Source: Periplaneta americana (lineage: Eukaryota > Arthropoda > Insecta > Blattodea > Blattidae). Taken from it: DNA of 64,000 bases. Position 1 is the first letter of the stretch. Every line of letters begins with the position of its first letter. The stretch is taken from NCBI RefSeq assembly GCF_040183065.1, contig NW_027185502.1, forward strand, positions 1,973,501-2,037,500. The letters run 5' to 3'. Below, piece after piece: positions 9,954-55,054 of this stretch. The position numbers and the translations under genes are program-made. Under the pieces are notes generated by a model. It worked only from the letters and a program-made list of their open reading frames with translations. It made no database searches and was not told where the DNA came from.

Positions 9954-9992
9954 GAAATCCCACTCTTCGCAAGATTTCGCCAGATTCAGGGC
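9954..9992 (-). CDS. Micro-exon 4 of a dispersed micro-exon gene (39 nt)
   Basis: On the minus strand a pyrimidine-rich stretch ending ttttttcag precedes this block and GTAAGTTATT follows it. The 39 nt read in phase 0 as ALNLAKSCEEWDF; phase +1 has a stop and phase +2 is open. Its flanks align with those of the other three micro-exons, but the exon itself does not. It is 6 nt shorter than its 45-nt paralogues and still a multiple of three. About 51% GC stands out from the AT-rich intron. The product is unknown. The splice sites and shared phase make an exon much more likely than chance, but no transcript evidence is available here. Confidence 0.6.
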
Positions 9993-10090
9993 CTGAAAAA
10001 AGAAACAAACCAGTAATAATTGTAGCGGAAATATATCAGTGACAAATATCTCACTAGCTATACTTTTATTCATCTTCTTATTTCAAATTT

Positions 10091-10840
10091 AAAAATTTAT
10101 TTATTTAATACACAAGGTTTCCACTATATCAGGCATCGCAGAGTCTCGTGCTCAGGCGCAGTTCAGTTAAGTTATACAAAATTGAATATAATAATACAAT
10201 AATATTAATATGTAGTAAAGTAGACATCATGTAATATTATATACAAATACAGAAAATACAAAAGTACACGAGTATTATATTACAATTTTAAAGTCAATTA
10301 GCTTAAGAAAAGACAAAACAATTAATTAATCTATTTTTTTTTTTTGCAAATCTATGTGTTCAGTGTACTTAGCTCTGATCAATGTAATATATATTCTGGG
10401 TGCAAAATCCAGCATTTGTGTGTCATTAGGGGATGTTTAGAAACAAACTGTAGTTTTGTCTCGTATGGTATTGTGATTTTTATGGAAGTAAATTAGCAAT
10501 GTTTGGTTATAAATTTGTTCTGGATTAAATATACCAAATTCCTGAAAAATTAATTTCGTTGGGTAATCAAAAGGTTTATAGAGACAAATTATGATCTTTG
10601 TTTTTTTTGGAGCAAATTTAAACGGCGGAGTTTTGATTTCGCCATTAGTCCCCAACCTAATACACCATGCTATGCAGCAGAGCTAAGTACACGGTATGCA
10701 GAACATAAATATGTTGATAAAAACGTAAAATGGAAAATTTATGGGCTTTTTTACGCAATCTGTTACACAGGAAGAAGATATGCTTGTTCCCTTTTAAATA
10801 ATGGCCAATAATAGTGCCTAAATACTTAACTTGTGAGGGT
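10091..10840 (-). pseudogene. Jockey/CR1-like LINE, C-terminal RT and 3' end
   Basis: On the minus strand, shifted frames give LGTIIGHYLKGNKHIFFLCNRLRKKAHKFSILR and then PPFKFAPKKTKIIICLYKPFDYPTKLIFQEFGIFNPEQIYNQTLLIYFHKN. This is the region after the RT palm in Jockey/CR1-type LINEs (the KYLG..I....L.W..HI..L..RL and QKRIIRII-like blocks). It ends in an (AAAT)n tail at about 10091-10115. There are several frameshifts and the 5' part is missing. The family may be the same as the RT core fragment at 23593-24057. Confidence 0.6.
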
Positions 10841-11109
10841 ATAGTGCAGTTGTAACGTTAGCAAGTAGGTAGGTTACAGTCATGTATTGTTACATTTCTA
10901 TTATTCCTTATTTTATATTAATTTACCTTAATCAATTTAATTATTACATATTAAGAGTCAGTGGCCTGGATAGTATAAGGAAGGGCTGTACATTTAGCAT
11001 TCACCATGGAGACACAGAAGTCTGCTTTAGTAGAAAAAAAAAGAGATATAATGCGGTTAATATGTGCAAAATGTTAGAATATTAACAAAAGCAGTAATGA
11101 GAAATACTA
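10841..11109. other. No gene recognised
   Basis: AT-rich spacer between the LINE fragment and the MITE. The short open frame at 10882-11085 shows no recognised motif. Confidence 0.4.
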
Positions 11110-11473
11110 CAGTCTATATCAGATGTCTTTGGAGCAGACCATAACAAGGGTCTCGATGCACGTCATGTTATCGTTGGTTGGCGAGTCATCTTAGCTGAGA
11201 GCGTTGTAGACACTAGCGCGTGCATATCCTGATTATGAGACACGAGCGTCCACTGCTACAGTTCTATTGCGTCTAGCGGTGTATGAGCACACGACAACTA
11301 GTGACTGATGCAAGAAGGTATGTTCAAAGACATTACTTTAATTTTTACTTTCGTTATATGAACGTAGTCGGTCACGTAATTCATACACACACATTCAGTA
11401 TCGTATGAACCGCGCTCTCTTGCATTTCTTCCGTCGGTTATATCTGCTCCAAAGACATAGATCTGGTATACAG
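11110..11473. mobile_element. MITE family M1, copy 1 (about 364 bp)
   Basis: The ends cagtctatatcagatgtctt and, read inward from the right, a diverged version containing atgtctttggagcagatata are inverted repeats. TA precedes the left end at 11108-11109. The copy at 20856-21217 has the same ends and the same interior in the opposite orientation, including tgtgtatgaatt and the caactagtgactgatgcaag block. The interior has no coding capacity. It is probably Tc1/mariner-class because of the TA target. Confidence 0.8.
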
Positions 11474-11876
11474 TATAAGTGGAGTTGAAGCTATCCAAAT
11501 TAGAGCCTCTCTATTCCCTCATCCTGTAAATCAAGAAAATTTGCCGCTAGAGGTCCAGCTGGAAATAATTGATTTTCCACATACTACACTGTTCAAAAAC
11601 ATGTAAATAACAAGTACTTCTATACAGTTCTTTACAGCCTGAACAGAATCCGAAGGTTTGTAAGTTTGCTCCGCAACTGAACCATTTTTTCATTGATGAA
11701 GCTAACTACGCCAAGATTAATGGTTAATTTGTCCGATGATTACATGCGCGATATGCTTACTGTTAGATTTGTTTTATCAGAGGTAACAAGATTGGTGCGA
11801 GGCAGAAATCGAAGAACCTATTCTTCTGAAACTTCATCTTTATGCTCTATTTTCGACAGTAATATTGCTTTTCCAT
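11474..11876. other. No gene recognised
   Basis: Nothing supportable is visible. The short open frame at 11693-11890 runs into the RTE-A 3' fragment and is not conserved with anything recognised. Confidence 0.4.
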
Positions 11877-11966
11877 CTTGCTCAGGATAGGGACCGATGG
11901 TGGGCTTATGTGAGGGCTGCAATGAACCTCCGAGTTCCTTAAAAGCCATAAGTAAGTAAGTAAATA
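11877..11966 (+). mobile_element. RTE-A LINE, 3' terminal 90 bp
   Basis: The block matches the last 80-90 bp of the other RTE-A copies, encoding LAQDRDRWWAYVRAAMNL and the final RVP, then stop and a (TAAG)n tail. It is an extreme 5' truncation, typical of target-primed reverse transcription. Confidence 0.85.
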
Positions 11967-14288: not shown

Positions 14289-14289
14289 C

Positions 14290-14350
<61 letters not shown>

Positions 14351-15237: not shown

Positions 15238-15260
15238 TGATGATGACGATGACGATGACG

Positions 15261-20167: not shown

Positions 20168-20361
20168 AAAGAAATGTCAGAAGGAGGTGAAATAGAGAGA
20201 CGTAGTCAAGGATTCCCGTCATCACCTAAACTCTTACACATTTATTTGGAAAATTTAGTGGAAAACTGTCCTTTCAGAACATGGCAGGTGTAATAATTAC
20301 GAGGAAGTGCATAAGATTTGCAGCTGATATGTCGTTAGTAGCAAAAGAGGAAACGATATTA

Positions 20362-20575
20362 GGGGAGAGTCGGGTAGTATCGAACATCGGGTAATATCGG
20401 ACAGTGCGTTTCTTTCATCTGCCACCATATGGTAGTACCTGAATGACATGGTTACGTTTGTCTATGCGACATCACAGAAACGTAACCATGTCAATCAGGT
20501 ACTATCATCGTGTGGTAGATGAAAGAAACTCACTGTCCGATATTACCCGATGTCCGATACTACCCGACTCTCCCC
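20362..20575. mobile_element. 214-bp foldback (long-hairpin) element, TA target
   Basis: The left arm begins ggggagagtcgggtagtatc and the right arm ends in its reverse complement. Arms of about 98 bp are near-identical, with an 18-nt loop (gtctatgcgacatcacag). TA flanks both sides (20360-20361 and 20576-20577), and the RTE-B sequence is continuous across the insertion. A transcript of this region would form a very stable hairpin. Confidence 0.85.
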
Positions 20576-20855
20576 TAAAGGATATGCTACTGGAGCTAAA
20601 TGAGCAGTATGGGATGAAGATAAATGCAAAGACGAATCCTATTGTTATCGGAAGAAAAATAAAGAAGGTAAGAGTACGAATTCTAAATGAAGAATTAGAG
20701 CAAGTGAACAGCTTCAAATACTTGGGATGTACCATAAACAGTAACAGGAACTGCTACCAGGAAGTCAAAAGGAGGATAGCAATGGCAAAGGAAGCTTTTA
20801 ATAGAAAAAGGAGCATCTTGTGCGAATCTCTGGAAAAAGAACCAAGGAAGAGACA

Positions 20856-21217
20856 CACTCTACACCAGATGTCTTTGGAGCAGATATAACCAATGCAACA
20901 GAGCGCGGTTCACACGATACTGAATGTCTGTGTATGAATTAAGTGACCGACTACGTTCATACAACGAAAAGTGAAAATTAAAGTAATGTCTTTGAACATA
21001 CCTTCCTGCATCAGTCACTAGTTGTCGTCTGCTCATACACCGCTACACGCAATAGAACTGCGTCTCTGAATACGCCTCGTAACCAGGATATGCACGCACT
21101 AGTGTCTACAGCGCTCTCAGCTAAGTAATGACTCGCCACCAATGGGAGCGCAGCGATAACATGAGATGCATCGAGATCCTAGTTATGGTCTGCTCCAAAG
21201 ACATCTGTTATAAAGTG
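20856..21217. mobile_element. MITE family M1, copy 2 (362 bp)
   Basis: The ends cactctacaccagatgtctt and, from the right read inward, cactttataacagatgtctt are inverted repeats, both continuing tggagcaga. TA follows the right end at 21218-21219, while the left TA has decayed. The host RTE-B sequence (gagactagtgaagtgc) is continuous without it. The interior matches copy 1 at 11110-11473 in inverted orientation. Confidence 0.85.
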
Positions 21218-21575
21218 TAGTGAAGTGCTTTGTATGGAGTGTTGCATCGTACGGGGCAGAAACATGAACATTACGACGAAGTGAAGAGAAGCGACTAGAA
21301 GCATTTGAAATGTGTAAATGGAGAAGGATGGAAATGTTTTGAAAGAACTGTTCAGGATGAGAAAAAGGAATTGGTTGGGTTACTAGTTGAGAAGAAACTG
21401 CGTACTGAAGGATGCACTGGAAAAAATAGTGAACTGGATAATTATTCGGGGCGGAAGAAGATTTGATATATGGATCGTATGCGGAGACAAGGAGGAAGGC
21501 AGAAAATAGGAAAGATTGGAGAATGCTGGGTTTGCAGTGGAAGATCTGCCCTTGGACAGAAAACTACGAATGAAT

Positions 21576-22075
21576 TCTTCGAACAATGAGTTTAATGTTG
21601 TTTGTCTGGCCCTGATAGAGGGAACAGTGTGCTCGAACTTCACAAGTCATGAAAGTATTAAAGCTATCTTAAGTGTACGCCGTACCTTATGCAGAATGAT
21701 GTTAACTATTACTGCATAAAATGAACGCTCTTCTCCTTTCTTCATTGTCAGTGTATTATAAATTCACGGATTCAGTAGAGGTTGTCATTACTTGCGCTGA
21801 TAACCACCGAGAAAACTCTGCTCGGAAACAATTCCGGCCCTCTTTTCATGTTGATTTGACAAGTTTGTAGTGAAAAATCGGATGAGCGAACTGAAGTATA
21901 AATATCGTTCTACTTCACTATAAAAATGACTTAGACATCAATGAATGATAGACAAAGTAAGATACAATATGAAGATGAATACAACTGCAGTAAAAAGAAC
22001 ATCAAAAATAAAAATAAAGCTACGTATATAATTGGTGTCTAAGTTACTTTCAGCGAAGTGACATTATATTTATTT
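21576..22075. other. No gene recognised
   Basis: AT-rich spacer between two LINE copies. No motif or repeat was recognised. Confidence 0.4.
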
Positions 22076-23512
22076 TGTTTGGTAAGGAGATTGTACCAGA
22101 ACAATGGAAGGAGTCCATAATCGTACCTATCTTTAAGAAGGGGGACAAGACTAACTGTAGTAACTTTCGAGGAATATCACTTTTGTTAACGTCGTACAAA
22201 ATTTTGTCCAATATTCTTTTAAGAAGATTAACTCCATGTGTAGATGAAATTATTGGGGATCATCAGTGTGGTTTTAGGCGTAATAGATCAACTATTGACC
22301 AGATATGTTGTATTCGACAGATAATGGAGAAAAAATGGGAGTATAAGGGTACAGTGCATCAGTTATTAATCGATTTCAAAAAAGGCATATGACTCGATTA
22401 AGAGAGAAGTTTTATATGATATTCTTATTGAATTTGGTATTCCCAAGAAACTAGTTCGATTAATTAAAATGTGTCTCAGTGAAACTTACAGCAGAGTTCG
22501 TATAGGTCAGTTTCTGTCAGATGCGTTTCCAATTCACTGCGGGCTAAAGCAAGGAGATGCAGTATCACCTTTACTTTTTAACTTTGCTCTAGAGTATGCC
22601 ATTAGCAAAGTCCAGGATAACAGAGAGGGTTTGGAATTGAACGGGCTACATCAGCTACTTGTCTATGCGGATGACGTGAATATGTTAGGAGAAAATCCAC
22701 AAACAATTAGGGAAAACACGGGAATTTTACTGGAAGCAAGTAAAGAGATAGGTTTGGAAGTAAATCCCGAAAAGACAAAGTATATGATTATGTCTCGTGA
22801 CCAGAATATTGTACGAAATGGAAATATAAAAATTGGAAATTTATCTTTTGAAGAGGTGGAGAAGTTCAAATATCTTGGAGCAACAGTAACAAATATAAAT
22901 GATATTCGGGAGGAAATTAAACGCAGAATAAATATGGGAAATGCGTGTTATTATTCGGTTGAGACGCTTTTATCATCCAGTCTGCTGTCAAAAAATCTGA
23001 AAGTTAGAATTTATAAAACAGTTATATTACCGGTTGTTCTTTATGGTTGTGAAACTTGGACTCTCACTTTGAGAGAGGAACATAGGTTAAGGGTGTTTGA
23101 GAATAAGGTGCTTAGGAAAATATTTGGGGCTAAGAGGGATGAAGTTACAGGAGAATGGAGAAAGTTACACAACACAGAACTGTACGCATTGTATTCTTCA
23201 CCTGACATAATTAGGAACATTAAATCCAGACGTTTGAGATGGGCAGGGCATGTAGCACGTATGGGCGAATCCAGAAATGCATATAGAGTGTTAGTTGGGA
23301 GGCCGGAGGGAAAAAGACCTTTGGGAAGGCCGAGACGTAGATGGGAAAGTAATATTAAAATGGATTTGAGGGAGGTGGAATATGATGATAGAGACTGGAT
23401 TAATCTTGCTCAAGATAGGGACCAATGGCGGGCTTATGTGAGGGCGGAAATGAACCTCCGGGTTCCTTAAAAGCCAGTAAGTAAGTAAGTAAGTAAGAAA
23501 GTAAGTAAGTAA
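22076..23512 (+). pseudogene. RTE-A LINE, 5'-truncated, RT palm to tail
   Basis: The copy starts in the RT fingers ([52 protein letters not shown]) and breaks at motif A. There the run of six A before ggc shifts DFKKAYD to FKKGI. From 22469 a frame of 333 codons is open to the end: [42 protein letters not shown] (motif C YADD), [43 protein letters not shown] and RPRRRWE, ending in NLRVP. A (TAAG)n tail at 23475-23512 follows. The endonuclease and RT N-terminus are missing. The frameshift is shared with the copy at 45675-47656. The activity when intact would be target-primed reverse transcription in the nucleus. Confidence 0.93.
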
Positions 23513-24475: not shown

Positions 24476-24735
24476 AACCCCGGCGCTGCGTACCATTTTC
24501 GCAATGAGCTGAGAAGCTTGTGGTTTCTCACGCTGCGAGTTCGCGTGAATCAGTTGCTGAGCGCTTGTTATGTCCAATGGAATTCGCCGTCTTGCCACTT
24601 TTGAAAGAATAAGCCAAAATTATCCTGCATTGTTAGTGGAGAAGACAGTGATATCTTCATCAGACTATTTGTCAACGCTATATGTATTTAATTCTAATAT
24701 TTTTCTTGTGACGAAATTGGATATAGATAAACTGG

Positions 24736-25250
24736 AGAACGAAGAGAAAGAAGAAAATTTGAAGCAAGTTTTCAAGAGAAAGCCACTAAATTAGAATCCA
24801 CACCTAAAAATTATAATGAGTACTGGACTCATTTAAAAAGCTGTAAACCAGGGATTTCAAAGCCCCTGCACTGCGTGCTCTCAAGAACCTGCAAAACATT
24901 TCCTTAAGAGCGATGATTGCACTTTATCTTGCTGAAAAGTGAATCTTGTTGGATTTGTAATGCTTGTAGTATGAGCACACAATACAGGCGATTTAACATC
25001 CCTGCTGTAAACAGATAACAGATTGTTGGGGTCAGGCTGAGAAGAAGGTACCTACTGAAAGATGCACTGGAAGAAATTGTGAACGGGAAAAGAAGTTCGG
25101 AGCAGAAGTAATTACCAGATGATACACAATATAAGATATTTGAAACCTATGTGGAGAATAAGAGGAAGGCAGAAAATATGGAAGATTGAATAATGTTAGA
25201 TTTTGCAGTGAAAGATCTGCCGTTGGGAAGAACACTGTCAGTGAATTAAT
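24736..25250 (+). pseudogene. RTE-B LINE, internally deleted copy
   Basis: Positions 24736-24846 match the RTE-B linker (EEKEENLKQVFKRK, ESTPKNYNEYWTHLKSC). Positions 25030-25250 match the RTE-B 3' end (ggcagaaaatatggaagatt, gatctgccgttgggaagaac). The RT domain between is replaced by about 180 bp of unrelated sequence. No intact frame remains. Confidence 0.8.
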
Positions 25251-25879: not shown

Positions 25880-26430
25880 AAGGCTCATGAGGAAGCCAAT
25901 AAATTTGAACATATTTTACAGTAATGCTTTTTCCGTCTGAAACAAAGACTGTAGTATCAATATTATAAATATTCAACATTCACTACTTCAAGACTTCCGA
26001 TTTGCCCTACGACACCCGGTACAATTAAAAACTGATATCAGCATCTCTGTTCTGAAGCTAAATCTATTTTCCATTTTTTTTCAATGAATAATTTGCATAA
26101 GGAAATACAGTGATACAACTATTAAAGATTTATATATTGTAAATTAAGGAGTTACTTACGATCGCGTCCATGACAGCAGCTAGGAGCTGCGTTTCAAGGA
26201 TCCTCTGTAAAAAGAAAAAAAATCGGTAATAATTATGCAGAAATCATAACATATCTGTAGATCAGTAGCAGTTACTGATTTAAAACCAATCGTAATAAAA
26301 ACAAAGAAAATAATCTACAGCTATTTTCAACAATGACACTGTCTCTACTGGACTAACTCTAACAATCCACTGATTTCATTAATCTTTATAGAGTAGGCCT
26401 GCACTGAGCTCTACTGCCATGGTTAGTATA
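25880..26430 (-). repeat. Micro-exon cassette 3 (intron segment)
   Basis: Aligns with the cassettes at 54619-55330, 34363-34690 and 8305-8620/9850-10040. Shared phrases include aaactgatat, tctgttctgaa.ctaaatctatttt, gttacttac, tgtaaaaagaaaaaaaa.cggtaat and, downstream, ccactgatttcattaatcttta versus ccactgtttttattaatcttc in cassette 1. It is the least disturbed cassette in the window. Only the exon at 26160-26204 fails to align. Confidence 0.7.
26160..26204 (-). CDS. Micro-exon 3 of a dispersed micro-exon gene (45 nt)
   Basis: On the minus strand ttttttttctttttacag precedes it and GTAAGTAACT follows. In phase 0 it reads RILETQLLAAVMDAI; both other phases contain stops, so this exon fixes the reading phase of the set. 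It is 53% GC in AT-rich introns. The cassette around it aligns with those of exons 1, 2 and 4, while the exon matches exon 1 at only 14 of 45 bases. The peptide is hydrophobic and helix-prone. The function is unknown. Alternatives are a decayed exon copy or a chance splice-like pair, made less likely by four concordant cases. Confidence 0.65.
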
Positions 26431-26985
26431 ATCGACCGATATTTACGATAATTATTGAATGCTAATACATTCGATATCATTCTGTCCAATTTCATTGGCC
26501 AAAATGGTAACCCATCACTGAAGTGGTGCATATCTGACTGGAATTATATTAATAATTTCAAATCTCCACCATGTTCAAGGGAGAAAAATCCTGATAAAGA
26601 CAATCTTGATATTATAATTAGCCTGTACACTTGTATAGGCTATAGGGGGAGAAGATGTCACTCCAATCACCTGGAAAAAGTGCTCGGCATGCCAAAATCA
26701 ATTAAAGTGAGCTAATCTCGTTATAATTATAGCAGTGACGTCAACCGGCACGCATATAAGCCGCGGCCATATTTACTCCTTGCTCGGCACAGAAGCGTAA
26801 GCAGCAATGCTGGAAGGAAGGTAACTAAAGGCGATTTCATACATGTTGTTGTGGTTTATTGAATACCGGAGACGAGGATTAATAAACGTTATTGTCATTA
26901 GTGAAATGACTCATTAGAGATAGCACTTTATTATTTAATATGTTATTTCAATAGGAATAACATCAGCAATTTTCTACTGCAATTC
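26431..26985. other. No gene recognised
   Basis: The open frame at 26455-26715 has no recognised motif. A GC-richer patch at 26735-26790 (gtcaaccggcacgcat) follows. Nothing else is supportable. Confidence 0.35.
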
Positions 26986-27819: not shown

Positions 27820-27850
27820 CTTTATGTTTTCAATTACAAAAATTATGTCA

Positions 27851-28790: not shown

Positions 28791-29109
28791 GAAAATATTA
28801 TGTCGTTGAGAAAATTAATCATAGACGTATATTCCTCCTCTTGTTTCTGACCAAATGCTAATTTTGTATAACGCCAATTGATTACACATTGACCGCACAA
28901 CAACACGGCATTCTTCAAAATAAGAATGGAATAGCACACTAGAAACCTGTGTTCCTACGCACGTCTTGCATTATACTAAGTCTCCGGAAGGGTAAATATG
29001 GCCGCCGCGTCGTCATTTGCCGGATCAAAAGAATGCGGTACTCTCCAGTATACATTGTTCTGCGCAACAGAAGTCGGCGTAGTGTAAATAAGGGCTACAA
29101 TGTGGTTAT
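28791..29109. other. No gene recognised
   Basis: Mixed sequence between the RTE-A truncation point and the RTE-B 5' end. It has a GC-rich patch at 28980-29050 (atggccgccgcgtcgtcatt) without a recognised product. Confidence 0.35.
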
Positions 29110-32304: not shown

Positions 32305-32780
32305 GTAGCAACTTACTTCATTCCTTTTTCATACAAAGCAAAATTAACACAAGCTGTCAGACAATGTGAACAATAAGTTGCAAAACTTTTGTATTATGAA
32401 ATGTGTCTGAAATATCTTGAGCAATTTGAATCTGACAACGTACAGCAAAAGTAAGAATTTTGGAAATAAAATCGTTTAACTATCTTAGCATTCACGTTGT
32501 GTAAGGACTGGTGTACAGATAAAAAAAACATAATGATGAAAAATATATTTGCAAGGAGAACGGGATTTGGAAAAAAAAAATCTGTGAAAATGGACAAATA
32601 TTTAACAGACAAGAATAATTGTAAACGAGATAATGATGATGAAAATAAGCATTATTAAAGATTGAAGAGATATCTTATAATGTTAAAAAATTGACAAATT
32701 TGACGAAATTGCAACGTATCTGAAATGTACCAGAAGATATATAATTACTTGTTGGAGGTGTATAGTTTCTTTGCAATATT
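32305..32780. other. No gene recognised
   Basis: AT-rich spacer between the RTE-B tail and micro-exon cassette 2. Confidence 0.4.
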
Positions 32781-32965
32781 TGGTGCAAGAAGTAGGCTAT
32801 TGTCTTTCTTCCAGCGTTTATTTTTATATTTAAGGACAGGAAGCCCTAGAGAAATTTTATTAATACCGCTGTCACTTGCCATTTCATCAAACATTAAATT
32901 ATCGATAATGCATGCTCGAACAATAAATTGTAACTAAAGAGAATATGTGTTCCTATGAATGATTA

Positions 32966-34362
32966 CACTGGGTAACAACGAAAATGTTTCTCTCGATATT
33001 TTAATTGTTTCTGGTTCAGTTTTTTGCGCTGATTTCAAATCTATAATTACGTTTTCTGAAATGATAACTGTTCCAGAAATACAACGGTATTCTTAATTAT
33101 GTTTGTTCTACGTTAAAGCATGACTTCCAAAGGTGATTGCAGGAATTCAGCGGATTCTTTCTGTTACGTTTGTGGATATTACATCAGTACAAGGCAGAAG
33201 AAGCATAGCATCAGACCTGGCACCAAATATTATACAGCTTACTTTGAAGTACCAATACGAGGCCAAGACAATTCATGGGCACCACATGTGTGCTGTGATT
33301 CCTGGAAGGATGACTACGAGGATTTCGGAAATGTATGCCTTTCGCTGTTTCCAGAATTTGGAGGGAACCAACCAACCATATGATGGTGATAGGTTTTTTT
33401 ACTGGGACTCCAAGGTGGATTCACTAAGTATCCATGCTTCCTCTGTTTATGGGACAACCGAGCAACAATGAAACACTATATCCAATGAGAGTGGCCTTTA
33501 CATAACAAACTTGTTCCAGGACAACTGAATGTCCTACATGAATCTCTTATTGTGAGGGAAACGATTTTGCTACATCCTTTCCACATTAAATTAGGAATGG
33601 GGAAGGTCTGGACTAGTAGCCATATGCTTTGCGATATATTCGCTCCATTTTTCCACATTTAACTGATGCAAAAGTAATTGCTGGAGTGTTTCCTGGATCT
33701 CACATTAGACTGATGCTGGAGGCCATAGAGTTGGAACAAAAATGACTCCACTCAATCAAGTACCTGGCAAGCATTTCGTGATGTGCACGGCTTCCTAGGC
33801 AATAAGAAGAGTGCAAATTACCGAGAGCAGACTGAGAACTTGCTACATACATATCATAACTTAGGTGCAGAATGTCAACAAAGCTGCATTACCTGCACTC
33901 CCATTTGGACTTCTTTATGCAGAATCTAGGCGATGTGTCTGAAGAACATGGAAGACGATTCCACCAAGACATGCAAAGTATGGAATTGCGATATCAAGGA
34001 AAACGGGATACAGCCATGATGGGAGACTACGTGTGGGGTTTGGTAGGGATAGTAATCAGCAACACAAAAGGAAAGCACGATCACATCTGCATTTCTAATA
34101 TACTTAATTCAAGACTGTTATTGTATAAATATGTATTGTCCATCGTAAAGATTGTACTATATAGTCATTATTCTTTCTGATAAGCCTAATAAATATGCAT
34201 ATTACTTAAACATATACAGTTAATTTCCCAAAGAACTATTGACGCTACAATGAAAATACTGATATTTCCGAACTCACCGTATGTGATTTATCGATATGAA
34301 ACCAAAAAAAAAAAAAAAAAAACAGGAGAAACAAAAATTTGCTCAAAATTTGTTACCCAGTG
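32966..34362. mobile_element. CMC (CACTA-type) DNA transposon, 1397 bp, TTA target duplication
   Basis: The left end is cactgggtaacaacgaaaat, and the right end read inward is cactgggtaacaaattttga. Both are flanked by TTA (32963-32965 and 34363-34365). Paralogous introns at 8446-8475 and 54730-54745 show the empty site (gaatgatta). Ends beginning CACTG with a 3-bp duplication fit the CACTA/Mirage/Chapaev (CMC) superfamily. The interior carries a broken gene of the YLHSHLD family. The superfamily call rests on the ends, not on a recognised DDE domain. Confidence 0.75.
33120..34120 (+). pseudogene. YLHSHLD-family gene inside the CMC-type element, broken
   Basis: In order: SFCYVCGYYISTRQ (Cys pair), YYTAYFEVPIRGQDNSWAPHVCCDSW (a Cys-rich domain), AFRCFQNLEGTNQP, then KLVPGQLNVLHESLIVRETILLHPFHIKLGMGK. 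The C-terminal block follows: LHYLHSHLDFFMQNLGDVSEEHGRRFHQDMQSMELRYQGKRDTAMMGDYVW (about 33880-34035). From memory this is the layout of a family present in many copies in arthropod genomes and annotated there as uncharacterised. At least five stops or shifts break it. Its position between inverted CACTG ends suggests that the family is the cargo or transposase gene of this transposon. No catalytic triad was identified. Confidence 0.72.
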
Positions 34363-34602
34363 TTATGAATTAAGGAAAGTTGATGGAAAGGAGACAATGA
34401 CTCGCTGTAATCATTGTAAAGATGGAACAAAATGGAATTCTTGAGGTAATCTACAAAGTCCGAAACTGGAATCAATATTCTTGTTCTATAATTAAATCGA
34501 TTAAAAAAATCCGCGAACACTTTTCCAATGGAGATTATGTTAAGGGAAAGCCTGAATGCAACATATTATACCATTAACTATGTTCACTCATCAGTTACTT
34601 AC

Positions 34603-34647
34603 CTCTTCCAGTAGAATATGCTCCCAAATTCCGTTGACGAATTTGAC
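34603..34647 (-). CDS. Micro-exon 2 of a dispersed micro-exon gene (45 nt)
   Basis: On the minus strand gattattttctttttatag precedes it and GTAAGTAACT follows. In phase 0 it reads VKFVNGIWEHILLEE; all three phases are open here, so the phase is taken from exon 3. Its flanks align with the other cassettes, but the exon matches exon 1 at only 13 of 45 bases, about the level expected by chance. An (AAAC)n microsatellite lies 60 bp upstream in the intron. The product is unknown, and transcription is inferred from splice signals only. Confidence 0.62.
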
Positions 34648-34708
34648 CTATAAAAAGAAAATAATCGTCAGAACACATGTCATAAAACACTTGCAGATCT
34701 CTACAAAA

Positions 34709-40200: not shown

Positions 40201-41541
40201 GGTGCATCGCCGGCGGTATGCTATGATGAGCGGGCTCTACTGCCTGTATGTGTCGGTGCATCGCCGGCGGTATGTTATGATGAGCGGGCTCTACTGCCTG
40301 TATGTGTCGGTGCATCGCCGGCGGTATGCTATGATGAGCGGGCTCTACTGCCTGTATGTGTCGGTGCATCGCCGGCGGTATGCTATGATGAGCGGGCTCT
40401 ACTGCCTGTATGTGTCGGTGCATCGCCGGCGGTATGCTATGATGAGCGGGCTCTACTGCCTGTATGTGTCGGTGCATCGCCGGCGGTATGCTATGATGAG
40501 CGGGCTCTACTGCCTGTATGTGTCGGTGCATCGCCGGCGGTATGTTATGATGAGCGGGCTCTACTGCCTGTACGTGTCGGTGCATCGCCGGCGGTATGTT
40601 ATGATGAGCGGGCTCTACTGCCTGTACGTGTCGGTGCATCGCCGGCGGTATGCTATGATGAGCGGGCTCTACTGCCTGTATGTGTCGGTGCATCGCCGGC
40701 GGTATGTTATGATGAGCGGGCTCTACTGCCTGTACGTGTCGGTGCATCGCCGGCGGTATGCTATGATGAGCGGGCTCTACTGCCTGTATGTGTCGGTGCA
40801 TCGCCGGCGGTATGCTATGATGAGCGGGCTCTACTGCCTGAATGTGTCGGTGCATCGCCGGCGGTATGCTATGATGAGCGGGCTCTACTGCCTGTATGTG
40901 TCGGTGCATCGCCGGCGGTATGCTATGATGAGCGGGCTCTACTGCCTGTATGTGTCGGTGCATCGCCGGCGGTATGTTATGATGAGCGGGCTCTACTGCC
41001 TGTATGTGTCGGTGCATCGCCGGCGGTATGCTATGATGAGCGGGCTCTACTGCCTGTATGTGTCGGTGCATCGCCGGCGGTATGCTATGATGAGCGGGCT
41101 CTACTGCCTGTATGTGTCGGTGCATCGCCGGCGGTATGCTATGATGAGCGGGCTCTACTGCCTGTATGTGTCGGTGCATCGCCGGCGGTATGCTATGATG
41201 AGCGGGCTCTACTGCCTGTATGTGTCGGTGCATCGCCGGCGGTATGCTATGATGAGCGGGCTCTACTGCCTGTACGTGTCGGTGCATCGCCGGCGGTATG
41301 TTATGATGAGCGGGCTCTACTGCCTGTACGTGTCGGTGCATCGCCGGCGGTATGCTATGATGAGCGGGCTCTACTGCCTGTATGTGTCGGTGCATCGCCG
41401 GCGGTATGCTATGATGAGCGGGCTCTACTGCCTGTACGTGTCGGTGCATCGCCGGCGGTATGCTATGATGAGCGGGCTCTACTGCCTGTATGTGTCGGTG
41501 CATCGCCGGCGGTATGCTATGATGAGCGGGCGGCGACCTAG
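37282..41541 (+). CDS. Candidate coding exon across the 54-bp minisatellite (no ATG in frame)
   Basis: After a stop at 37279-37281 this frame is open for 4.26 kb to TAG at 41539-41541. It has about 80 non-repeated residues (LNDLVHIYHASESSSLAQVG...), then 74 copies of an 18-residue unit (ALLPVCVGASPAVCYDER) and a final AAT. The frame contains no ATG, so translation would need an upstream spliced exon; acceptor-like sites lie at 37278-37306. Three of the four frequently variable bases are synonymous only in this frame: Cys tgc/tgt, Gly ggt/ggg/gga and Leu cta/ctg. The fourth changes Cys to Arg. Rare units have Glu or Ser substitutions. The frame also stays open because 54 is divisible by 3 and the unit lacks stops, so coding is not proven. 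Confidence 0.3.
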   Translation, partial: FISIGFLSGLNDLVHIYHASESSSLAQVGGTQQAFRVTLRTVWESRATTLPACLRGKVAGGRTIRSVSPLKDVNSYGQASSSSPALLPVRVGASPAVCYDERALLPVCVGASPAVCYDERALLPVCVGASPAVCYDERALLPVCVGASPAVCYDERALLPVCVGASPAVCYDERALLPVCVGASPAVCYDERALLPVCVGASPAVCYDERALLPVCVGASPAVCYDERALLPVCVGASPAVCYDERALLPVCVGASPAVCYDERALLPVCVGASPAVCYDERALLPVCVGASPAVCYDERALLPVCVGASPAVCYDERALLPVCVGASPAVCYDERALLPVCVGASPAVCYDERALLPVCVGASPAVCYDERALLPVCVGASPAVCYDERALLPVCVGASPAVCYDERALLSVCVGASPAVCYDERALLPVCVGASPAVCYDERALLPVCVGASPAVCYDERALLPVRVGASPAVCYDERALLPVCVGASPAVCYDERALLPVCVGASPAVCYDERALLPVCVGASPAVCYDERALLPVCVGASPAVCYDERALLPVCVGASPAVCYDERALLPVCVGASPAVCYDERALLPVCVGASPAVCYDERALLPECVGASPAVCYDERALLPVCVGASPAVCYDERALLPVCVGASPAVCYDERALLPVCVGASPAVCYDERALLPVCVGASPAVCYDERALLPVCVGASPAVCYDERALLPVCVGASPAVCYDERALLPVCVGASPAVCYDERALLPVRVGASPAVCYDERALLPVCVGASPAVCYDERALLPVCVGASPAVCYDERALLPVCVGASPAVCYDERALLPVCVGASPAVCYDERALLPVRVGASPAVCYDERALLPVCVGASPAVCYDERALLPVCVGASPAVCYDERALLPVCVGASPAVCYDERALLPVRVGASPAVCYDERALLPVCVGASPAVCYDERALLPVCVGASPAVCYDERALLPVRVGASPAVCYDERALLPVCVGASPAVCYDERALLPVCVGASPAVCYDERALLPVCVGASPAVCYDERALLPVCVGASPAVCYDERALLPVCVGASPAVCYDERALLPVCVGASPAVCYDERALLPVRVGASPAVCYDERALLPVRVGASPAVCYDERALLPVCVGASPAVCYDERALLPVRVGASPAVCYDERALLPVCVGASPAVCYDERALLPECVGASPAVCYDERALLPVCVGASPAVCYDERALLPVCVGASPAVCYDERALLPVCVGASPAVCYDERALLPVCVGASPAVCYDERALLPVCVGASPAVCYDERALLPVCVGASPAVCYDERALLPVCVGASPAVCYDERALLPVRVGASPAVCYDERALLPVRVGASPAVCYDERALLPVCVGASPAVCYDERALLPVRVGASPAVCYDERALLPVCVGASPAVCYDERAAT
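37534..41529. repeat. 54-bp minisatellite, exactly 74 units, no indels
   Basis: The array is 3,996 bp, or 74 x 54. The unit begins gctctactgcctgtatgtgt and ends ggtatgctatgatgagcgg, with the 8-bp palindrome cgccggcg inside. Units differ at four common positions and a few rare ones, and no unit has an insertion or deletion. It is GC-rich in an AT-rich genome. Its homogeneity points to recent expansion or ongoing conversion. Confidence 0.98.
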
Positions 41542-44394: not shown

Positions 44395-44690
44395 GGAGAA
44401 AGCGAAGAGACACATTTTAAATCTGGATATGGAAAGAGTTGGTGAAGAAAACGCCAACACTGATCAGGAAGAGAAAAATTAATTGGTTTGGTCACTGGCT
44501 GAGAAGAATGTCAACTGAAGGATGCACTGGAAGGAATGGTGAACGGGAGAAAAGTTCGGGCAGAAGAACATATCAGATGATAGACGACATTAAGATGTAT
44601 GGATCATATGAGGAGACAAAGAGGGTTTGCAGTGAAAGACCTACCCTTGGACCGAACACTGAATGAATAAATTAATAAATGAATTAATTG
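44395..44690 (+). pseudogene. RTE-B LINE, 3' end fragment
   Basis: Encodes ERVGEEN..., FGHWLRRMSTEGCTGRNGE, SSGRRTYQMIDDIKMYGSYEET in shifting frames. It matches the RTE-B 3' end at 31985-32235 and is followed by a degenerate (TGAA)n tail. Confidence 0.85.
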
Positions 44691-45674
44691 ATGAATGAAT
44701 GAATTAATTAATTAATATACAGGGTGGAAGCGAAACAACGTTCCTGATTGAAAGGCACGATAGGTTACACGCAAATGAATAGAAAACCTATATTACGTTT
44801 TGTGATTAAATACACGGTTAATTAGAAAAATAAGTTGGAAGTTTCAGCAGTCCGGCAACATCGCCACTCACACACACTTGTCGTGATACAGATGTAAGAG
44901 GTCAACGAACTCGGTGTGTCGCTAGACGAGCTGTTCTCTGCGCTGTGTTGCAACGTGCAATGGCTCGCAATGAGGGATTTTAAAATTAAATTTACACGAA
45001 AATCGTCCACAATATTGAAATACGCCAGAGGGATGAATTATTCTTTATTAGATTTTCTATCGATATGGACAAAAATAACGATCTTACTTGCAGTAGTTAC
45101 AGAACAATAGGCTGTTAAAAATTCGAAAAAAAAAATATTTTCTGAAAAAAAATATTATTAACTTTGCACCAATATGATATTATAGTTTATTGTTACATAC
45201 TCATTCATGACTATGAATCAAATTACATAATCCAAAAGCCTGAACTACACAGAATCACCGACTTTGGCTACTTCGTAATAGGGAGCCACGAGTCTGAGGA
45301 TCATAAACCAAGCTGTCTGACATTATTCAGCGACAGATATCAGCGGACTAAAATTAATAATTCCCCGATTTTATTTATCTCCTTAGTAGATATTAGCCTA
45401 AGCTTTTGTGTCCTGGTGTGTTGTTACTTTCAATAACTGTCCAATTGCTCTGTAATTTACACGAAGACATGCACAAAACTTGTCAGATATTTAATACTGA
45501 CTTACAAACCTCTTGCAGTACGAAATGGCACCGCCATGATCTTCAGTAATAATTTCAATGTTATGATGTACAGAAACATTAATAACTTTATTTTGGAACA
45601 CGAAAATGAAATGATTTTTCCTGGGAGGAACTGGTGCAGAGAAATGAAATATAGCAATGAAAAATGTGTTTGTT
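44691..45674. other. No gene recognised; one possible transposon end
   Basis: At 44716-44730 tatacagggtggaagcgaaa resembles the TA-flanked start of many insect mariner-like elements, but no matching right end was found. The open frames at 44916-45110 and 45164-45436 show no motif. Confidence 0.35.
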
Positions 45675-47656
45675 TTAAGAAAAAGAAATCGTGGTTTGAT
45701 GAATATTGTTGCAGGATAGTAGAAAGAAGAAAACAGGCAAAATTGAAATTCTTACAGGATCCAGTTGAGGCGAATAGAGGTATTTATTTCAATCAAAGAC
45801 GGGAAGCGAGTCGTACACTTAGGAGTTCAAACAGAGTTACTTGAAGGAGAACTGAATGCGAATATAAACAAATAGAAGGTATAAAAACATCAGAGATTTA
45901 TATAAGGGTATAAAGGAATTTAAGAACGGATATCAGGCAAGGGTAAACGTGATCAAGGATGAGAATGGTGACTTACTTGCAGACTCTCATTGAATCCTGA
46001 ACAGATGCAAAAAACTAGTTCGGGAAATTACTAAATGTACAAAGGCCAAATAGAAATGATCGGGACGAAATTCAAATACAAGTTGCTGTGACATTTATAC
46101 CCGAATCAACACTATCTGAAATCGAAACTGCGATAGAAAATCTGAAAAACTACAAGTCTCCAGGTATCGATCAAATTCCAGCAGAATTAATACAAGAGGG
46201 TGGAAGTGAATTATCTAGCGAAATTGATAAACTTGTACTTGCTATTTGGGAAAAGGAAATTGTACCAGAACAATGGAAGGAGTCCATAATTGTACCTATT
46301 TTTAAGAAGGGGGACAAGACTAACTGTAGTAACTTTCGAGGAATATCACTTTTGTTGACGTCGTACAAAATTTTGTCAAATATTCTGTTGAGAAGATTAA
46401 CTCCATACTTAGATCAAATTACTGGTTATCATCAGTGTGGTTTCAGACTTATAGATCTACTATTGATCAGATTTTTTTATTCGACAGATATTGGAAAAAA
46501 ATGGGACTATAAGGGTGCAGTATATCAGTTATTCATAGATTTCAAAAAAGGCATATGACTCGTTGTAGAGAGAAGTTTTAAATAATATTCTTATTGAATT
46601 TGGTATTCCCAAGAAACTAGTTAAATCAATTAAAATGTGTCTCAGTGAAATTTACAGCAGAGTCCGTAAGGGTCAGTTTCTGTCAGTTGCGTTTCCAATT
46701 CACTGCGGGCTAAAGCAAGGAGATGCACTATCACCTTTACTTTTTAACTTTGCTCTAGAGTATGCCATTAGGAAAGTCCAGGATAACAGAGAGGGTTTGG
46801 AATTGAACGGGTTACATCAGCTGCTTGTCTATGCGGATGACATGAATATGTTAGGAGAAAATCCACAAACGATTAGGAAAAATACGGGAATTTTACTTGA
46901 AGCAAGTAAAGAGATAGGTTTGGAAGTAAATCCCGAAAAGACAAAGTATATTACTATGTCTCGTGACCAGAATATTGTACGAAATGTAAATATAAAAATT
47001 GGAAATTTTTCCTTTGGAGAGGTGGAAAAATTTAAATACCTGGGAGCAACAGTAACAAATATAAATGATAGTCGGGAGGAAATTAAACACAGAATAAATA
47101 TGGGAAATGCGTGTTATTATTCGGTTGAGACGCTTTTATCATCCAGTCTGCTGTCAAAAAATCTGAAAGTTAGAATTTATAAAACAGTTATAGTACCGTT
47201 TGTTCCATATGGTTGTGAAACTTGGACTCTCACTTTGAGAGAGGAACATAGATTAAGGGTGTTTGAGAATAAGCATCGTAAGAAAATATTTGGGGCTAAG
47301 AGGGATGAAGTTACAGGAGAATGGAGGAAGTTACACAACACAGAACTGCACGCATTGTATTCTTCACCTGACATAATTAGGAACACTAAATCCAGATATT
47401 TGAGATGGGGAGGGCATGTAGCACGTATGGGCGCATGCAGAAATGCTTATAGAGTGTTAGTTGGGAGGCCGGAGGGAAAAAGACCTTTGGGGAGGCCGAG
47501 ATGTAGATGGGAAGATAATATTAAAATGGATTTGAGGGAGATGGGATATGATGATAGAGAATGAATTAATCTTGCTCAGGATAGGGACCAATGGCGGGCT
47601 AATGTGAGGGCGGCAATGAACCTCCGGGTTCCTTAAAAGCCAGTAAGTAAGAAGTT
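45675..47656 (+). pseudogene. RTE-A LINE, 5'-truncated copy with RT
   Basis: The copy starts at the linker (KKKKSWFDEYCCRIVERRKQAKLKFLQDPVEANRG), with stops near 45843 and 45992. The RT fingers are open at 46088-46558: ESTLSEIETAIENLKNYKSPGIDQIPAELIQEGG, EIVPEQWKESIIVPIFKKGDK, YHQCGF. Motif A is broken by the same six-A run as in the 22-kb copy (FKKGI). A second frame, 46635-47564, holds [33 protein letters not shown] (motif C), [21 protein letters not shown] premature stop (DREstop) removes the last 30 residues. The tail is short. The endonuclease is missing. Confidence 0.92.
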
Positions 47657-48640: not shown

Positions 48641-50780
48641 AGTTCTAATAAATAATTTCGTGGTGTTGTGTGCAGACAGAGTAACATTGCGAATGAAAAA
48701 CTGAGAGGCAGAAGAATTTCAGCAAAAAGGACCCTCTGAGATTGATCCAGCATGTTGCTACGAGATGAAACTCCAAACTTCAGTGATGAGCCGCTTACTT
48801 GAAATGAAATATGAGTTGGTGATTGTGTTGTCAGAAAAGCCAAACGCTCTTAGGACGCTAACAGGTCCGTATTTGGAAATCTCTATGGCGTGGACAAGGT
48901 TAGATAGATTCTGTGAGTAGGTCTAAATTTTAAAATGTAGGCATGTAAGTGTTTAGGCTAACATTAAGAGTCGCGGTTGTGGTACTCGTACTTGCTGTCA
49001 AAAATAAATTATTACCCTTCAGATACACATTGACGGTTAATTAGTGATATCGATTTCGTAGTTTTAAAATTACGCAAAACATTTGATACGATTTCTTTTA
49101 ACTGCTTTAGTGCTATTGTTCCAAAGGTTCACAGTCTAGAAAAAAAATTCTTGAAATTTCTATAAAACGTAACTTTCGAGGCAATAAAAATCATACATAA
49201 TTATGGAATATTTAAAAGGCAACTTGAGTTATCAGATTAAAATATTGAGTTTCATTCTGAAACTAAAGAAACGTGTGGTAATAATATAATTACAATTATC
49301 CTTAAGTTGATATCCGCTTATATTTTTTATTACAGAGGAATAGTGACGCGTTTTAGAAGAGGCAGTTCAAATACTGACACCCTTTAACACAATGATCACA
49401 ATCCTGTCTCGTGAAGAATCTTAATAAATTATTTTGGACAGTAAACTTTAACCCATTGATACCACACGTTTCTTTTGTCCCATTCTGAAACTCCCTTAAT
49501 ATATTTTACGTTAAACTAAACCGATTAGAATAATAATTGACAAAAACTGTTTGTGAATAAACGAGTGTTTACTGTACAGGCAAATTATAAATGTTTACAA
49601 ATTATAAATGTTTACATTAGCTACTGAAAAGCTTTACTTCTGCGTTAGTTTTCAGTTAATTTTAATGTTATTAATTTGATCAATGATATAAAACTAATAC
49701 GCCTTTCCACATATACTATGAATTTCAAAACTAGAAAAAAAATCTGTCAGCTAACATAATACTTCAGGCAAAACAAGAAAAAAAGAAGAGCCAAAGAGAG
49801 AGAGAGGTAAATAAAAAAGAGAAAATAAACAAAAAAAATTACGCACTTATTCTAAAAGATACGCGGACTCCAATCACTACCCGATCAGCAGTAGTGTCAG
49901 AGTTGTAAGCTCCAAAACCGGTTGTGGAGCTAGAGTCAGTGCGTGAACTTGCTTATGTCTGTGGAAACACCGGAGCACGCAGCGAGTCTAGTGGAGCGCT
50001 CCGCTCCGTTTAGTCTCTGTCTAACAACGCTGCCTTAAAGGAATGCTCAGCGGAAAATGCATGTCTGCGCCACAGCACATATGCAACCTGCGCTGCATCA
50101 ATCGGAGATAACCAGACGTCTCCGATTGAAAGCGCGCAAACAACCGCTCCGGAGAAAAACCTAATCATAAGCAGCACTACACACTACACTATATATATCA
50201 TATCGTACCATATCAGGCATAAAACGAATTGTGTTTTTATAGCGTTTATTTTTTATCACCCCTGCTTGAGCGTATCCGATGACTGCTTATACTGCCTACT
50301 CATAAGACGATTTTACGAGTAACAATACTTTCGCTGAAATGATAAGTGGCAGCACAAATAGATTATGTGCATCCATGTCTGCTCCCAACTATGAAAAAAA
50401 AAAGTTCTGTTTTGTGCCAATGTGACATATAGAAGTGTGTTAGGAATAATAACCGTCAGAAACTTGTGACAGGAACTCTTGTGGATAAATTCGTGAAACC
50501 CGTACTTAGTAATCTAAGGAAGTTCCACACAGAGAAAGTTTTTCGGTTGTCTTGTTTTTTGAAGAGCAAAGAATGTAACGGAATAACGAAGAGGAAGAAG
50601 AAGCTATTACAGCAGCGAAACAAAGCAACATTCTAATCACACAATATAACCATGAAGCACAGGCTGGGACTGATATCCACAAGCGATTGCACTTGCCGTT
50701 AGGAGCTGCCAAATTCGATTTTTTTTCTATTCGCTACATGTTTGACCATTGCATGACCCGGCGATATAAGCAGTCATGGA
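48641..50780. other. 2.1-kb stretch without a recognised gene
   Basis: It is mostly AT-rich. A GC-richer patch at 49885-50165 contains ggagcgctccgctcc-like inverted phrases and tctccgatt repeats (atcggaga near 50101, tctccgatt near 50118) that hint at transposon ends. No coherent element was resolved. Confidence 0.4.

Positions 50781-51450: not shown

Positions 51451-51451
<1 letters not shown>

Positions 51452-51491
<40 letters not shown>
51452..51491. repeat. (GAT)n microsatellite
   Basis: About thirteen GAT units. Confidence 0.95.
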
Positions 51492-51492
<1 letters not shown>

Positions 51493-52733: not shown

Positions 52734-53169
52734 CTTATCATTGGCACTTAGCATGATAACAAATCAAACAGAAGCTACACTGAACCCACTGGGTCCCCCT
52801 TTTCTTTTTGTTATCACATCTTATCTTCAGATTTCTAAAATTCGTATTGTAATACAATTTTTAAAAAGTATAAAAAGTAACGCTTAATGCTCAACAAAAT
52901 TTCGCCTCAAACAGCTAAGATTTCTATCAGTAAAGCTAAGCCTGTATGGCGACTACATCTGTATCTAAAATTCCAAAAACATTTCCTAAAATTTCATGAA
53001 AATACAATAGATATTTGTATCAAATATCATATGCTTACCTTGAGGAATAAGCCTGTAATGTAATTACAAACATCCACAAAATTTGTACGCCTGAGAAGTC
53101 GACGCAAACTTGCTCTCTCCAAACATAAAAGCTCACTGAAGCAACTACAATAGTCACACAAAGCGTGGC

Positions 53170-53446
53170 TGTATGTTTCTGGAACCTGGACAACATATGT
53201 GTTATGCCCAGGGCTAGGCTAGCAGATGCTCAAAATGTCCTTCTCTGCACGAACACACGCTTCAGCACGCCGCGCCGTCTGACCTCTCGCTGCACGTTAT
53301 CCAATTCGTGCTGGTGTATCTCCATTGCAGCCGTGTTAAACTTTGCAACGAGCTCTTCCCTGCTTGCTATCTCAGTTTGGTACACTTTCTCCTTCATGCA
53401 GCCCCAAAGAAAGAAGTCCAATGGTGTTAGGTCTGTAACTCGTTAA
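53170..53446 (-). pseudogene. Tc1/mariner-like transposase, C-terminal end
   Basis: On the minus strand, DLTPLDFFLWGCMKEKVYQTEIASREELVAKFNTAAMEIHQHELDNVQREVRRR, then a shift before the last residues. The PLDFFLWGxxKxxVY segment is the third catalytic Asp region of mariner-like elements of the DUF4817 group. Everything upstream of the final third is missing. It is a different copy and lineage from 52018-52733. Confidence 0.8.
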
Positions 53447-53949
53447 GAACGCCCTGTAGCATGATTTCCTGTGGAGTATTAAATTTGAAACAGGAACAGT
53501 GTCAGCGGAATACACGGTCTTGAGATGCTTAGCCAGCGTTATAAAGTCTTGTCGGGCGTGTGGTAAATCACTGCCTACAATGAAGTATTCTTACGCCACA
53601 GATCATTGCTGGCTAATCGCATTGGTCCAGTAGAACAAAGCATGCATTTTAATTGGTTAAAACGCATTGTTCGAAATCTTTTCTTGCGCGTAATCTCATT
53701 ATAGCGACTTATCACTGTATTGCACTGAATAAAATTAAATGTAAGAGATGTTTGATTAAGACGACATCTGTAAGTACGTGAAATCAAAAGTGCTTTTAAG
53801 CCCATCTCACCTGGTGGATGGCGTGGTCGGCACCCCGGGCGGGAAACGGATAACGAAACAAAAATTGTTGGTGAGGAGGCGCGGCAGTGAGTGGAGACTG
53901 ACGGAGGGGGTTAATCGGGTCTTTTTGGTAAAGAAGAGACGGTAGCGTG

Positions 53950-53980
53950 ATGGCGTCGGCGGAAGAAAACGAAATGCCTT
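53950..53980 (+). CDS. Possible first coding exon within the TA-flanked element
   Basis: An ATG at 53950 opens a ten-codon frame (MASAEENEMP) that meets gtaagtaact, a consensus splice donor, at 53981. The surrounding 53820-53985 is GC-rich (gaggaggcgcggcagtgagt), as first exons of transposon genes often are. A further acidic open phrase (NPDEEEQESSAASSVSKSTDLSD) follows at about 54145-54215. No acceptor or transposase was linked to it, so this is tentative. Confidence 0.25.
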
Positions 53981-55009
53981 GTAAGTAACTTTGATTGTAC
54001 ATTATTTTGTAAATATATAATAATTCAAGTAGAGTTTACAATACTGCAATCATTTCTAACCATGTAGTTTTCCTATAGTACCCTGAGAGCTCCAGCTCTT
54101 GCACCAAATAGTTCTCCCTTGTTGTGCACAATGGCGGCGTGAGAAATCCTGACGAGGAGGAGCAGGAATCGAGCGCAGCATCATCCGTTAGCAAGTCAAC
54201 CGACTTGAGTGACGGTCGCACAACTTATGCAATCCCTTGGCGGAAATTTGAATCTCGTAACACCATTGGTTAGTTCACGAAAGAGCAAAGAAAAAGTATC
54301 ACGAAATAACCACTGCCACGAAATTACCAATCTTTACCCTACAACCGTTTCCTCTTAATACTTGTGAAAAAATCATACATTTAATATTCTCATCATATTG
54401 ACAGCAAAAAAAATACGTCCTCCCATCCTACTTGGAACTTTCGTACATGGTTTCAAGAGAGATATATGCCACTCGCAGGTCAGAGACAAATACAAATGGA
54501 ATGGAGTTTGACTCCAGTGAGTGAGAGGGTGGGAGTTGGCGGAGGTTAGAAGCAAGCGAAATGCATAGCTATCACTGCGAGCCACAATGTCTCGCGAGTC
54601 ACGTTCTCGCCTCGGCTGCCCTAGAGAAATATTTTATCAATACCGCTGTCACATGCCTTTTCGTAAAAAAAATTCAATCATCAGTAATTCATACTCAAAT
54701 AACAAATTGTAACAGAAAGAACTGTGAGTGCCTATGAATGATTACATATTAACAAAAGTGGATAGAAAGAGGACAATAAGTCGTAGTACCATTGTTGAGA
54801 TGGAAGAAAATATAACTTTTGAGGTAAGGTATACTAATCCGAAACTGGTATGAATATTTATGTTCTAAAATTAAATCTACTTTAGAGTATTTTTTTTTCC
54901 GGTGAACACTTTACCAATTTGGATCCAGTTATACTACTATTAAAGAAGATCCTGTAAGAAACATGTTATACTATTACATCTATAGCTAGTACACTCATGA
55001 GTTACTTAC

Positions 55010-55054
55010 CATCCTACGAAGCTCACAAATGTGGACAGTCCCGAAAAACAGGTC
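55010..55054 (-). CDS. Micro-exon 1 of a dispersed micro-exon gene (45 nt)
   Basis: On the minus strand ttttttcttttacag precedes it and GTAAGTAACT follows. In phase 0 it reads DLFFGTVHICELRRM; phase +1 is also open and phase +2 has a stop. It is the most upstream member of the set visible here. The introns on both sides align with those of exons 2, 3 and 4, the exon does not. The gene's first and last exons are not in the window or could not be recognised, so no start codon, signal peptide or stop can be assigned. Confidence 0.65.

Follow-up and report, generated by a model that had tools for sequence, protein, structure and literature searches.

Four symmetric microexons of one Periplaneta americana gene, and the partly duplicated introns around them

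Aphids and schistosomes have genes built of small symmetric exons that change rapidly, and these have been linked there to host manipulation or immune evasion. The bicycle proteins of aphids carry an N-terminal secretion signal, and the bicycle genes are expressed in the salivary gland. The present analysis concerns a gene of similar architecture in the cockroach Periplaneta americana, four microexons of which lie on the minus strand of a stretch of 64,000 nucleotides (contig NW_027185502.1, positions 1,973,501 to 2,037,500 of the forward strand; hereafter the window) and encode consecutive parts of an annotated protein, here called P0121. The reading that we favour, with somewhat more belief than doubt, is that this single gene grew by tandem duplication of an exon together with its intron, and that the exons then changed much faster than the introns.

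The original prediction, made from the window alone, compared the locus with aphid bicycle genes and schistosome micro-exon genes (MEGs). The comparison stands for the small symmetric exons and the restriction to one lineage, but not for exon phase, exon size or a visible signal peptide. Bicycle genes resemble the cockroach gene in their many small internal exons of one phase, in their fast coding change and in their lineage restriction. Internal tandem duplication has been described for megacycle, a relative of the bicycle genes, and an N-terminal secretion signal is stated for the megacycle protein, both in the accessible portion of PMC9168663. According to the same portion, however, the internal exons of bicycle genes are almost all phase 2, whereas all four exons here are phase 0, and bicycle proteins have CYC motifs, whereas inspection of P0121 finds a single Tyr (Y99) and five scattered Cys. 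Schistosome MEGs are alike in having small symmetric exons whose removal preserves the frame, transposon-rich surroundings and confinement to one lineage (accessible text of PMC8293314), and the four cockroach exons are all multiples of 3 in one phase. That text gives MEG exons as mainly 36 bp or less, in contrast to 45, 45, 45 and 39 nt here, and ascribes a signal peptide to all MEG proteins; the N-terminus of P0121 (MSRRLWDACRGRSRR...) shows by eye neither a hydrophobic stretch nor a signal peptide, and the start of its gene model may be wrong. The cockroach gene is neither a bicycle gene nor a schistosome MEG.

A likeness of another kind is found in viperid toxin genes, where, in the part of PMC2474615 drawn on here, paralogues have similar intron segments and distinctly different exon segments, and where the authors propose an exchange of exon segments (ASSET). 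Those cases involve paralogous genes and parts of larger exons, in contrast to the units of one gene and the whole exons seen here, and nothing marks P0121 as a toxin. A search of the available library returned no paper joining Periplaneta americana with microexon, or cockroach with micro-exon, and no title among the matches listed pointed to this gene.

Four microexons joined in an annotated protein

Four minus-strand blocks of 45, 45, 45 and 39 nt had been described, each preceded by a pyrimidine tract plus AG and followed by GTAAGT, and their coordinates (Table 1), splice signals and peptides were all confirmed. The blocks are spaced 8 to 20 kb apart. As had been claimed, only offset 0 stays open throughout the four blocks; exons 1 and 2 alone are open in offset 1, and exons 2 and 4 alone in offset 2. 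The open frame is by itself weak evidence for coding, and offset 0 is open in all four random blocks of these lengths in 4.4% of draws. A scan rule calling for AG after at least 14 pyrimidines in 18, then 36-51 nt that are a multiple of 3 and open in offset 0, then GTAAGT, picks exactly the four microexons on the minus strand of the window and nothing on the plus strand. With 60 first-order Markov sequences modelled on the minus strand, the same rule gives a mean of 0.05 per strand and a maximum of 1, the rule having been fitted after the exons were known. An alternative rule (15/18 pyrimidines, GTRAGT, 20-75 nt, closed frames allowed) recovers three of the four microexons, missing exon 2, and gives two overlapping plus-strand matches at 11886-11955, within the end of a long interspersed nuclear element (LINE).

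Evidence that the blocks are exons comes from a protein search in which the four peptides were joined in the predicted order (58 aa) and compared with 5.77 billion proteins, the query being padded so that candidates were proteins of about 106-337 aa. Among seven scored candidates there was one match, P0121, a 193-aa "uncharacterized protein [Periplaneta americana]", which covers 58 of the 58 residues, 55 of them identical (95%; E 1e-28). Direct comparison and tblastn against the window place the peptides consecutively in P0121, with exact borders and no residues between them, bearing out the exon order 1-2-3-4. The blocks are thus coding exons of one annotated protein, and the claim of an insect gene that extends over 45 kb or more holds. 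Residues 1-121 and 180-193 of P0121 have no tblastn match within the window; the tail of the protein, AISEDRVMKVIRVC, would together with a stop codon make up 45 nt. Because three residues differ from the window (one in exon 2, two in exon 3), P0121 appears to derive from another allele, assembly or paralogue; the contig that carries it measures 1,265,629 nt.

RefSeq annotation for this species was produced with Gnomon and drew on RNA-seq, transcriptomes and insect protein sets, according to the available text of PMC12774602, and we infer that P0121 belongs to this annotation. Since the search showed no homologue that could have guided the gene model, RNA support for 45-nt exons lying 8 to 20 kb apart is likely, if unproven. 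Alternative splicing would be possible, given that all four exons are symmetric; the sole product recovered contains all four.

The first half of P0121 is Ser-rich and acidic and contains an internal repeat of 22 aa (residues 38-59, WERELLSDSEASLSSSWSSIKE, and 72-93, WEDELLSDSEASLSSSWSSIKE, with 21 of 22 positions matching). This repeat, from outside the window, suggests a second, recent exon duplication. A single-sequence AlphaFold2 model (pLDDT 42, pTM 0.24) is too weak for a fold search; its C-terminal half contains a beta hairpin and three helices. P0121 is probably an intracellular protein with a helix-rich C-terminal half encoded by the microexons. The native exon order ranks 5th of 24 for helical phase across exon borders, which is uninformative.

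Pfam holds no match for the joined exons or P0121, apart from DUF5361 at E 0.11 with one joined fragment, far below the cutoff. The joined exons have no relative in the PDB, and the 10 chains that P0121 retrieves from it belong without exception to antibodies or their light chains, with E values no better than 1.2, over residues 61-98. A search with P0121 residues 90-193 among proteins of about 106-337 aa gave 25 candidates and found P0121 alone; relatives that are much longer, much shorter or highly divergent would escape it. Within the reach of one protein search, the gene appears to be restricted to the cockroach's lineage. A non-coding RNA host gene was considered and ruled out, no Rfam family reaching its gathering score within the window.

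Probable duplicated units, relics and insertions

For the comparison of introns, LINEs and satellites were masked, and the strand opposite the gene served as a decoy. With 12 single-sequence seeds, nhmmer gave 22 matches between units (E 0.01 or below; 11 distinct pairs of places, both directions being counted), all of them on the strand of the gene and none on the decoy. A profile search at E 1 also found no unit on the opposite strand and no other clear unit within the window; the unit profiles were built from the units themselves, so that the recovery of those units is circular and the informative result is the absence of anything else clear and of anything on the opposite strand. Growth by cassette duplication had been proposed in the original prediction, and it is supported by flanks that match across units in one orientation only. 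The units show the homologous flanks, the single orientation and the common phase that tandem exon-intron duplication calls for.

The flanks had also been said to align over hundreds of bases on both sides of all four exons, and this is true of some pairs only. Downstream, unit 1 can be aligned with unit 2 over about 390 nt, which an insertion breaks in unit 2, and with unit 4 over about 295 nt, where unit 4 is cut by LINE pieces (the fragments at 9224-9376 and 9635-9850 come after its first downstream part); units 1 and 3 can be aligned over about 100 nt only. Upstream, about 300 nt can be aligned in pair 1-3 alone. The last 60 nt upstream are alike in four of the six pairs (0/500 shuffles), and pairs 1-2 and 2-4 give P 0.06.

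Three further copies of the upstream flank lie within introns 1 and 2 and upstream of exon 1 (Table 1). The regions that follow r60 and r32 were examined for an exon and yielded none that seems usable. A doubtful further relic at 50212-50396 (E 0.012 in the profile search) was left out of the count. Because the upstream flank of r32 begins about 220-290 nt after the end of the downstream flank of unit 2, the arrangement in intron 2 suggests an ancestral unit period estimated at about 1.2-1.3 kb.

Table 1. Microexons, flanks and relics of the duplicated units (window coordinates)
Feature	Position	Strand	Remarks
Microexon 1	55010..55054	-	45 nt; DLFFGTVHICELRRM; P0121 residues 122-136
Microexon 2	34603..34647	-	45 nt; VKFVNGIWEHILLEE; P0121 residues 137-151, 1 aa different
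Microexon 3	26160..26204	-	45 nt; RILETQLLAAVMDAI; P0121 residues 152-166, 2 aa different
Microexon 4	9954..9992	-	39 nt; ALNLAKSCEEWDF; P0121 residues 167-179
Unit 1 downstream flank	54618..55009	-	uninterrupted copy, +1 to +392
Unit 2 downstream flank, first part	34369..34602	-	alignable with unit 1 from the donor onwards (gapped, 70% identity)
Unit 2 downstream flank, second part	32776..32967	-	past an insertion of about 1.4 kb, 32968-34368
Unit 3 downstream flank	26026..26159	-	alignable portion 26026-26128
Unit 4 downstream flank, first part	9846..9953	-	assigned by position; pairwise, unalignable alone past the donor region
Unit 4 downstream flank, second part	8302..8668	-	from pairwise and profile searches
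Unit 1 upstream flank	55055..55383	-	matches unit 3 (E 6.6e-5) and r45 (E 1.8e-8)
Unit 2 upstream flank	34648..34707	-	last ~60 nt only, resembling unit 3; units 1 and 4 not significant
Unit 3 upstream flank	26205..26644	-	matches unit 1 and r60
Unit 4 upstream flank	9993..10052	-	last ~60 nt only, resembling units 1 and 3
Relic r45, inside intron 1	45329..45672	-	upstream flank only
Pseudo-exon candidate of r45	45088..45111	-	24 nt enclosed by sites resembling an acceptor and a donor; offset 0 has a TAA; skipped in P0121
Relic r32, inside intron 2	32339..32551	-	upstream flank; truncated near 32306 by the tail of a LINE
Relic r60, upstream of exon 1	60846..61004	-	upstream flank

On the favoured reading, the gene would have grown through tandem duplication of an exon-intron unit of about 1.2-1.3 kb. 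Units would have been both born and lost, at least four being live and at least three being dead relics in the window, and the introns would have been lengthened by LINEs and satellites. Since all exons share one phase and have lengths divisible by three, gain or loss of a unit would leave the frame intact. After duplication, the exons would have far outpaced the surrounding introns in change, most likely under diversifying selection on the C-terminal part that they encode.

The original prediction also named an outcome that would speak against a gene, namely that the cassettes are copies of a known transposon whose variable 45-nt part is non-coding. The LINE-filled introns and the spread of the units over 45 kb would suit such an element. 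However, an annotated protein holds the four blocks in order, and all seven units lie on one strand with none found on the other; a transposable element is a very improbable explanation.

Some candidate similarities deep in the introns were first taken as unit homology (44430-44716 in intron 1, 31341-32306 in intron 2, 21189-21576 and 25010-25250 in intron 3). The block in intron 2 was dropped as a LINE end with a (TGAA)n tail, its translation being judged by eye, and the similarity between 30184-30316 and 24710-24843 was dropped as a LINE coding remnant, also judged by eye. Intron 3 contains a palindrome of about 220 nt (20359-20578) as well as a 365-nt element present as an inverted pair (20857-21221 and 11106-11474). 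The palindrome and the element break a stretch of intron 3 whose counterpart in intron 2 (31341-32248) is uninterrupted, and for this reason they look like later insertions.

A single LINE family, which has endonuclease and reverse transcriptase parts, is represented by copies or fragments at 1-611, 9224-9376, 9635-9850, 22084-23503, 27850-28793 (inverted), 45676-47655, 55538-56024 and 57394-60487. The copies are more than 80% alike where they overlap and have close relatives in Periplaneta americana; a protein search with the LINE open reading frame (ORF) at 22469-23467 placed 7,982 of 7,985 scored candidates within E 0.001, and the best 120 matches listed all carry this species name apart from one, P0044, that carries none. 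The window accordingly stems from the American cockroach or a species very close to it. An 11-copy tandem repeat of 50 bp (61008-61554) and an 84-copy AATAT array (56023-56441) adjoin a LINE end. Intron 1 contains a minisatellite (37533-41531) of 74 copies of a 54-bp unit with 98% matches. Because 54 is a multiple of 3, it holds ORFs of more than 1300 aa in three frames, the 1413-aa ORF having no Pfam match at E 0.01. A plus-strand open frame at 1292-1846 (184 aa) has no Pfam match at E 0.01 either; by eye, we take it to resemble a zinc finger region of the transposase type.

Exon divergence, flank divergence and competing explanations

The exons had been described as near chance in their similarity, and all six pairs do score like shuffles (P 0.07-0.73 for nucleotides, 0.23-0.95 for protein). 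Exons 1 and 3 match at 14/45 bases, the number originally given; a recount for exons 1 and 2 yields 12/45 in place of 13/45, and exons 2 and 3 match at 10/45. With anchored tiling in 45-nt tiles and a 97.5% null, the tile adjoining the exon lies above the null in five of six pairs upstream and four of six downstream, and the exon itself in none of six. The cleanest case is pair 1-2, in which six of eight downstream tiles exceed the null and the exon does not.

Outside gaps, identity in the 11 aligned flank blocks is 70-85%, and their distances under the Kimura two-parameter model are 0.17-0.39 substitutions per site. For the three 45-nt exons taken jointly, distances of 0.8 or less are rejected (0/1000 simulations each), and a distance of 1.0 has P 0.026. 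If homologous, the exons would differ by about 1 or more, which is about three times the distance of the alignable flanks, or more. That they share a phase and are nearly equal in length speaks for homology rather than separate origins. Diversifying selection, as originally proposed, would be the best and most likely reading of the fast exon change.

Several points weigh against this account. Accelerated change presupposes that the exons are homologous, and the exon pairs are at shuffle level; if they are not homologous, nothing would have been accelerated. The best supported pair, 1-2, taken alone rejects only distances of 0.6 or less (P 0.026), with P 0.15 at 0.8, and exon divergence was simulated without insertions or deletions. 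The flank blocks were selected because they could be aligned, which biases their distances low. Part of the likeness of the tiles next to the exons is functional, as they include the pyrimidine tract and donor that even unrelated introns have in common, and farther tiles are mostly at the null (3/36 above it upstream and 14/40 downstream, with one more at the limit). Two of the 12 seeds, those upstream of units 2 and 4, had no match, the three relic seeds were chosen from a prior blastn search, and most of the deeper intron similarity was LINE and hence discarded. Finally, transcripts may not fully support the gene model behind P0121.

The contrast between exons and introns could also arise the other way around, with the exons diverging long ago at an ordinary rate while gene conversion kept the introns alike and selection removed conversions into exons. 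Positive selection is not required for such homogenisation, to which tandem units in the same orientation lend themselves well, and gene conversion that homogenises paralogues is documented. However, none of the 11 flank blocks is near-identical, as recent conversion would leave them, units 2 and 4 have insertions of their own within the flanks, and the drop in likeness at both exon edges would demand that many conversion tracts stop there. We regard homogenisation as an unlikely explanation, though one to be taken seriously.

Introners spread through many genes of a genome and are expected to insert at unrelated positions and phases. If one intron had been copied in this way into several sites of a single coding sequence, conserved introns and unalignable exons would follow without selection, the exons being unrelated pieces of a domain. 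Helices 130-149 and 156-176 of the weak structural model would cross exon borders, as predicted for a domain cut arbitrarily. Instead of unrelated positions and phases, however, the five intron positions are all phase 0 (about 1 in 81 for phase alone), and the near-equal spacings of 45, 45, 45 and 39 nt are less likely still; decayed units are also present within the introns. Known introners do give similar introns between unrelated exons, and among animals and land plants only two taxonomic groups have them, according to the accessible part of PMC9860276. Here, in contrast, the copies in the window lie in one gene, in the same phase, at near-equal spacing and with decayed units in the introns. 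Intron copying is decidedly improbable, more so than homogenisation.

Within the favoured reading of tandem duplication followed by fast exon change, a more extreme version can be put forward tentatively, as somewhat less than an even prospect. Units of about 1.2 kb would remain recognisable as copies everywhere except in the 45-nt coding block, whose whole length would have turned over at least three times as fast as the introns. Such exon-limited hypervariability would reflect either extreme diversifying selection or the exchange of whole exon segments. By analogy with the proposal for viperid toxin genes, exchange of exon segments is a possible mechanism here. If this version is true, one gene would be a set of unrelated, frame-compatible pieces of 15 residues that are gained, lost and rewritten.

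Implications

Each duplicated unit brings its own intron as a local yardstick for the rate at which its exon has changed, since the two can be set side by side. With the genomes of related cockroaches, the cause of that change (selection, segment exchange or intron conversion) would become open to direct test. A cockroach gene of this architecture, outside parasitism and with a product that is probably not secreted, would show that the architecture can arise in other settings.

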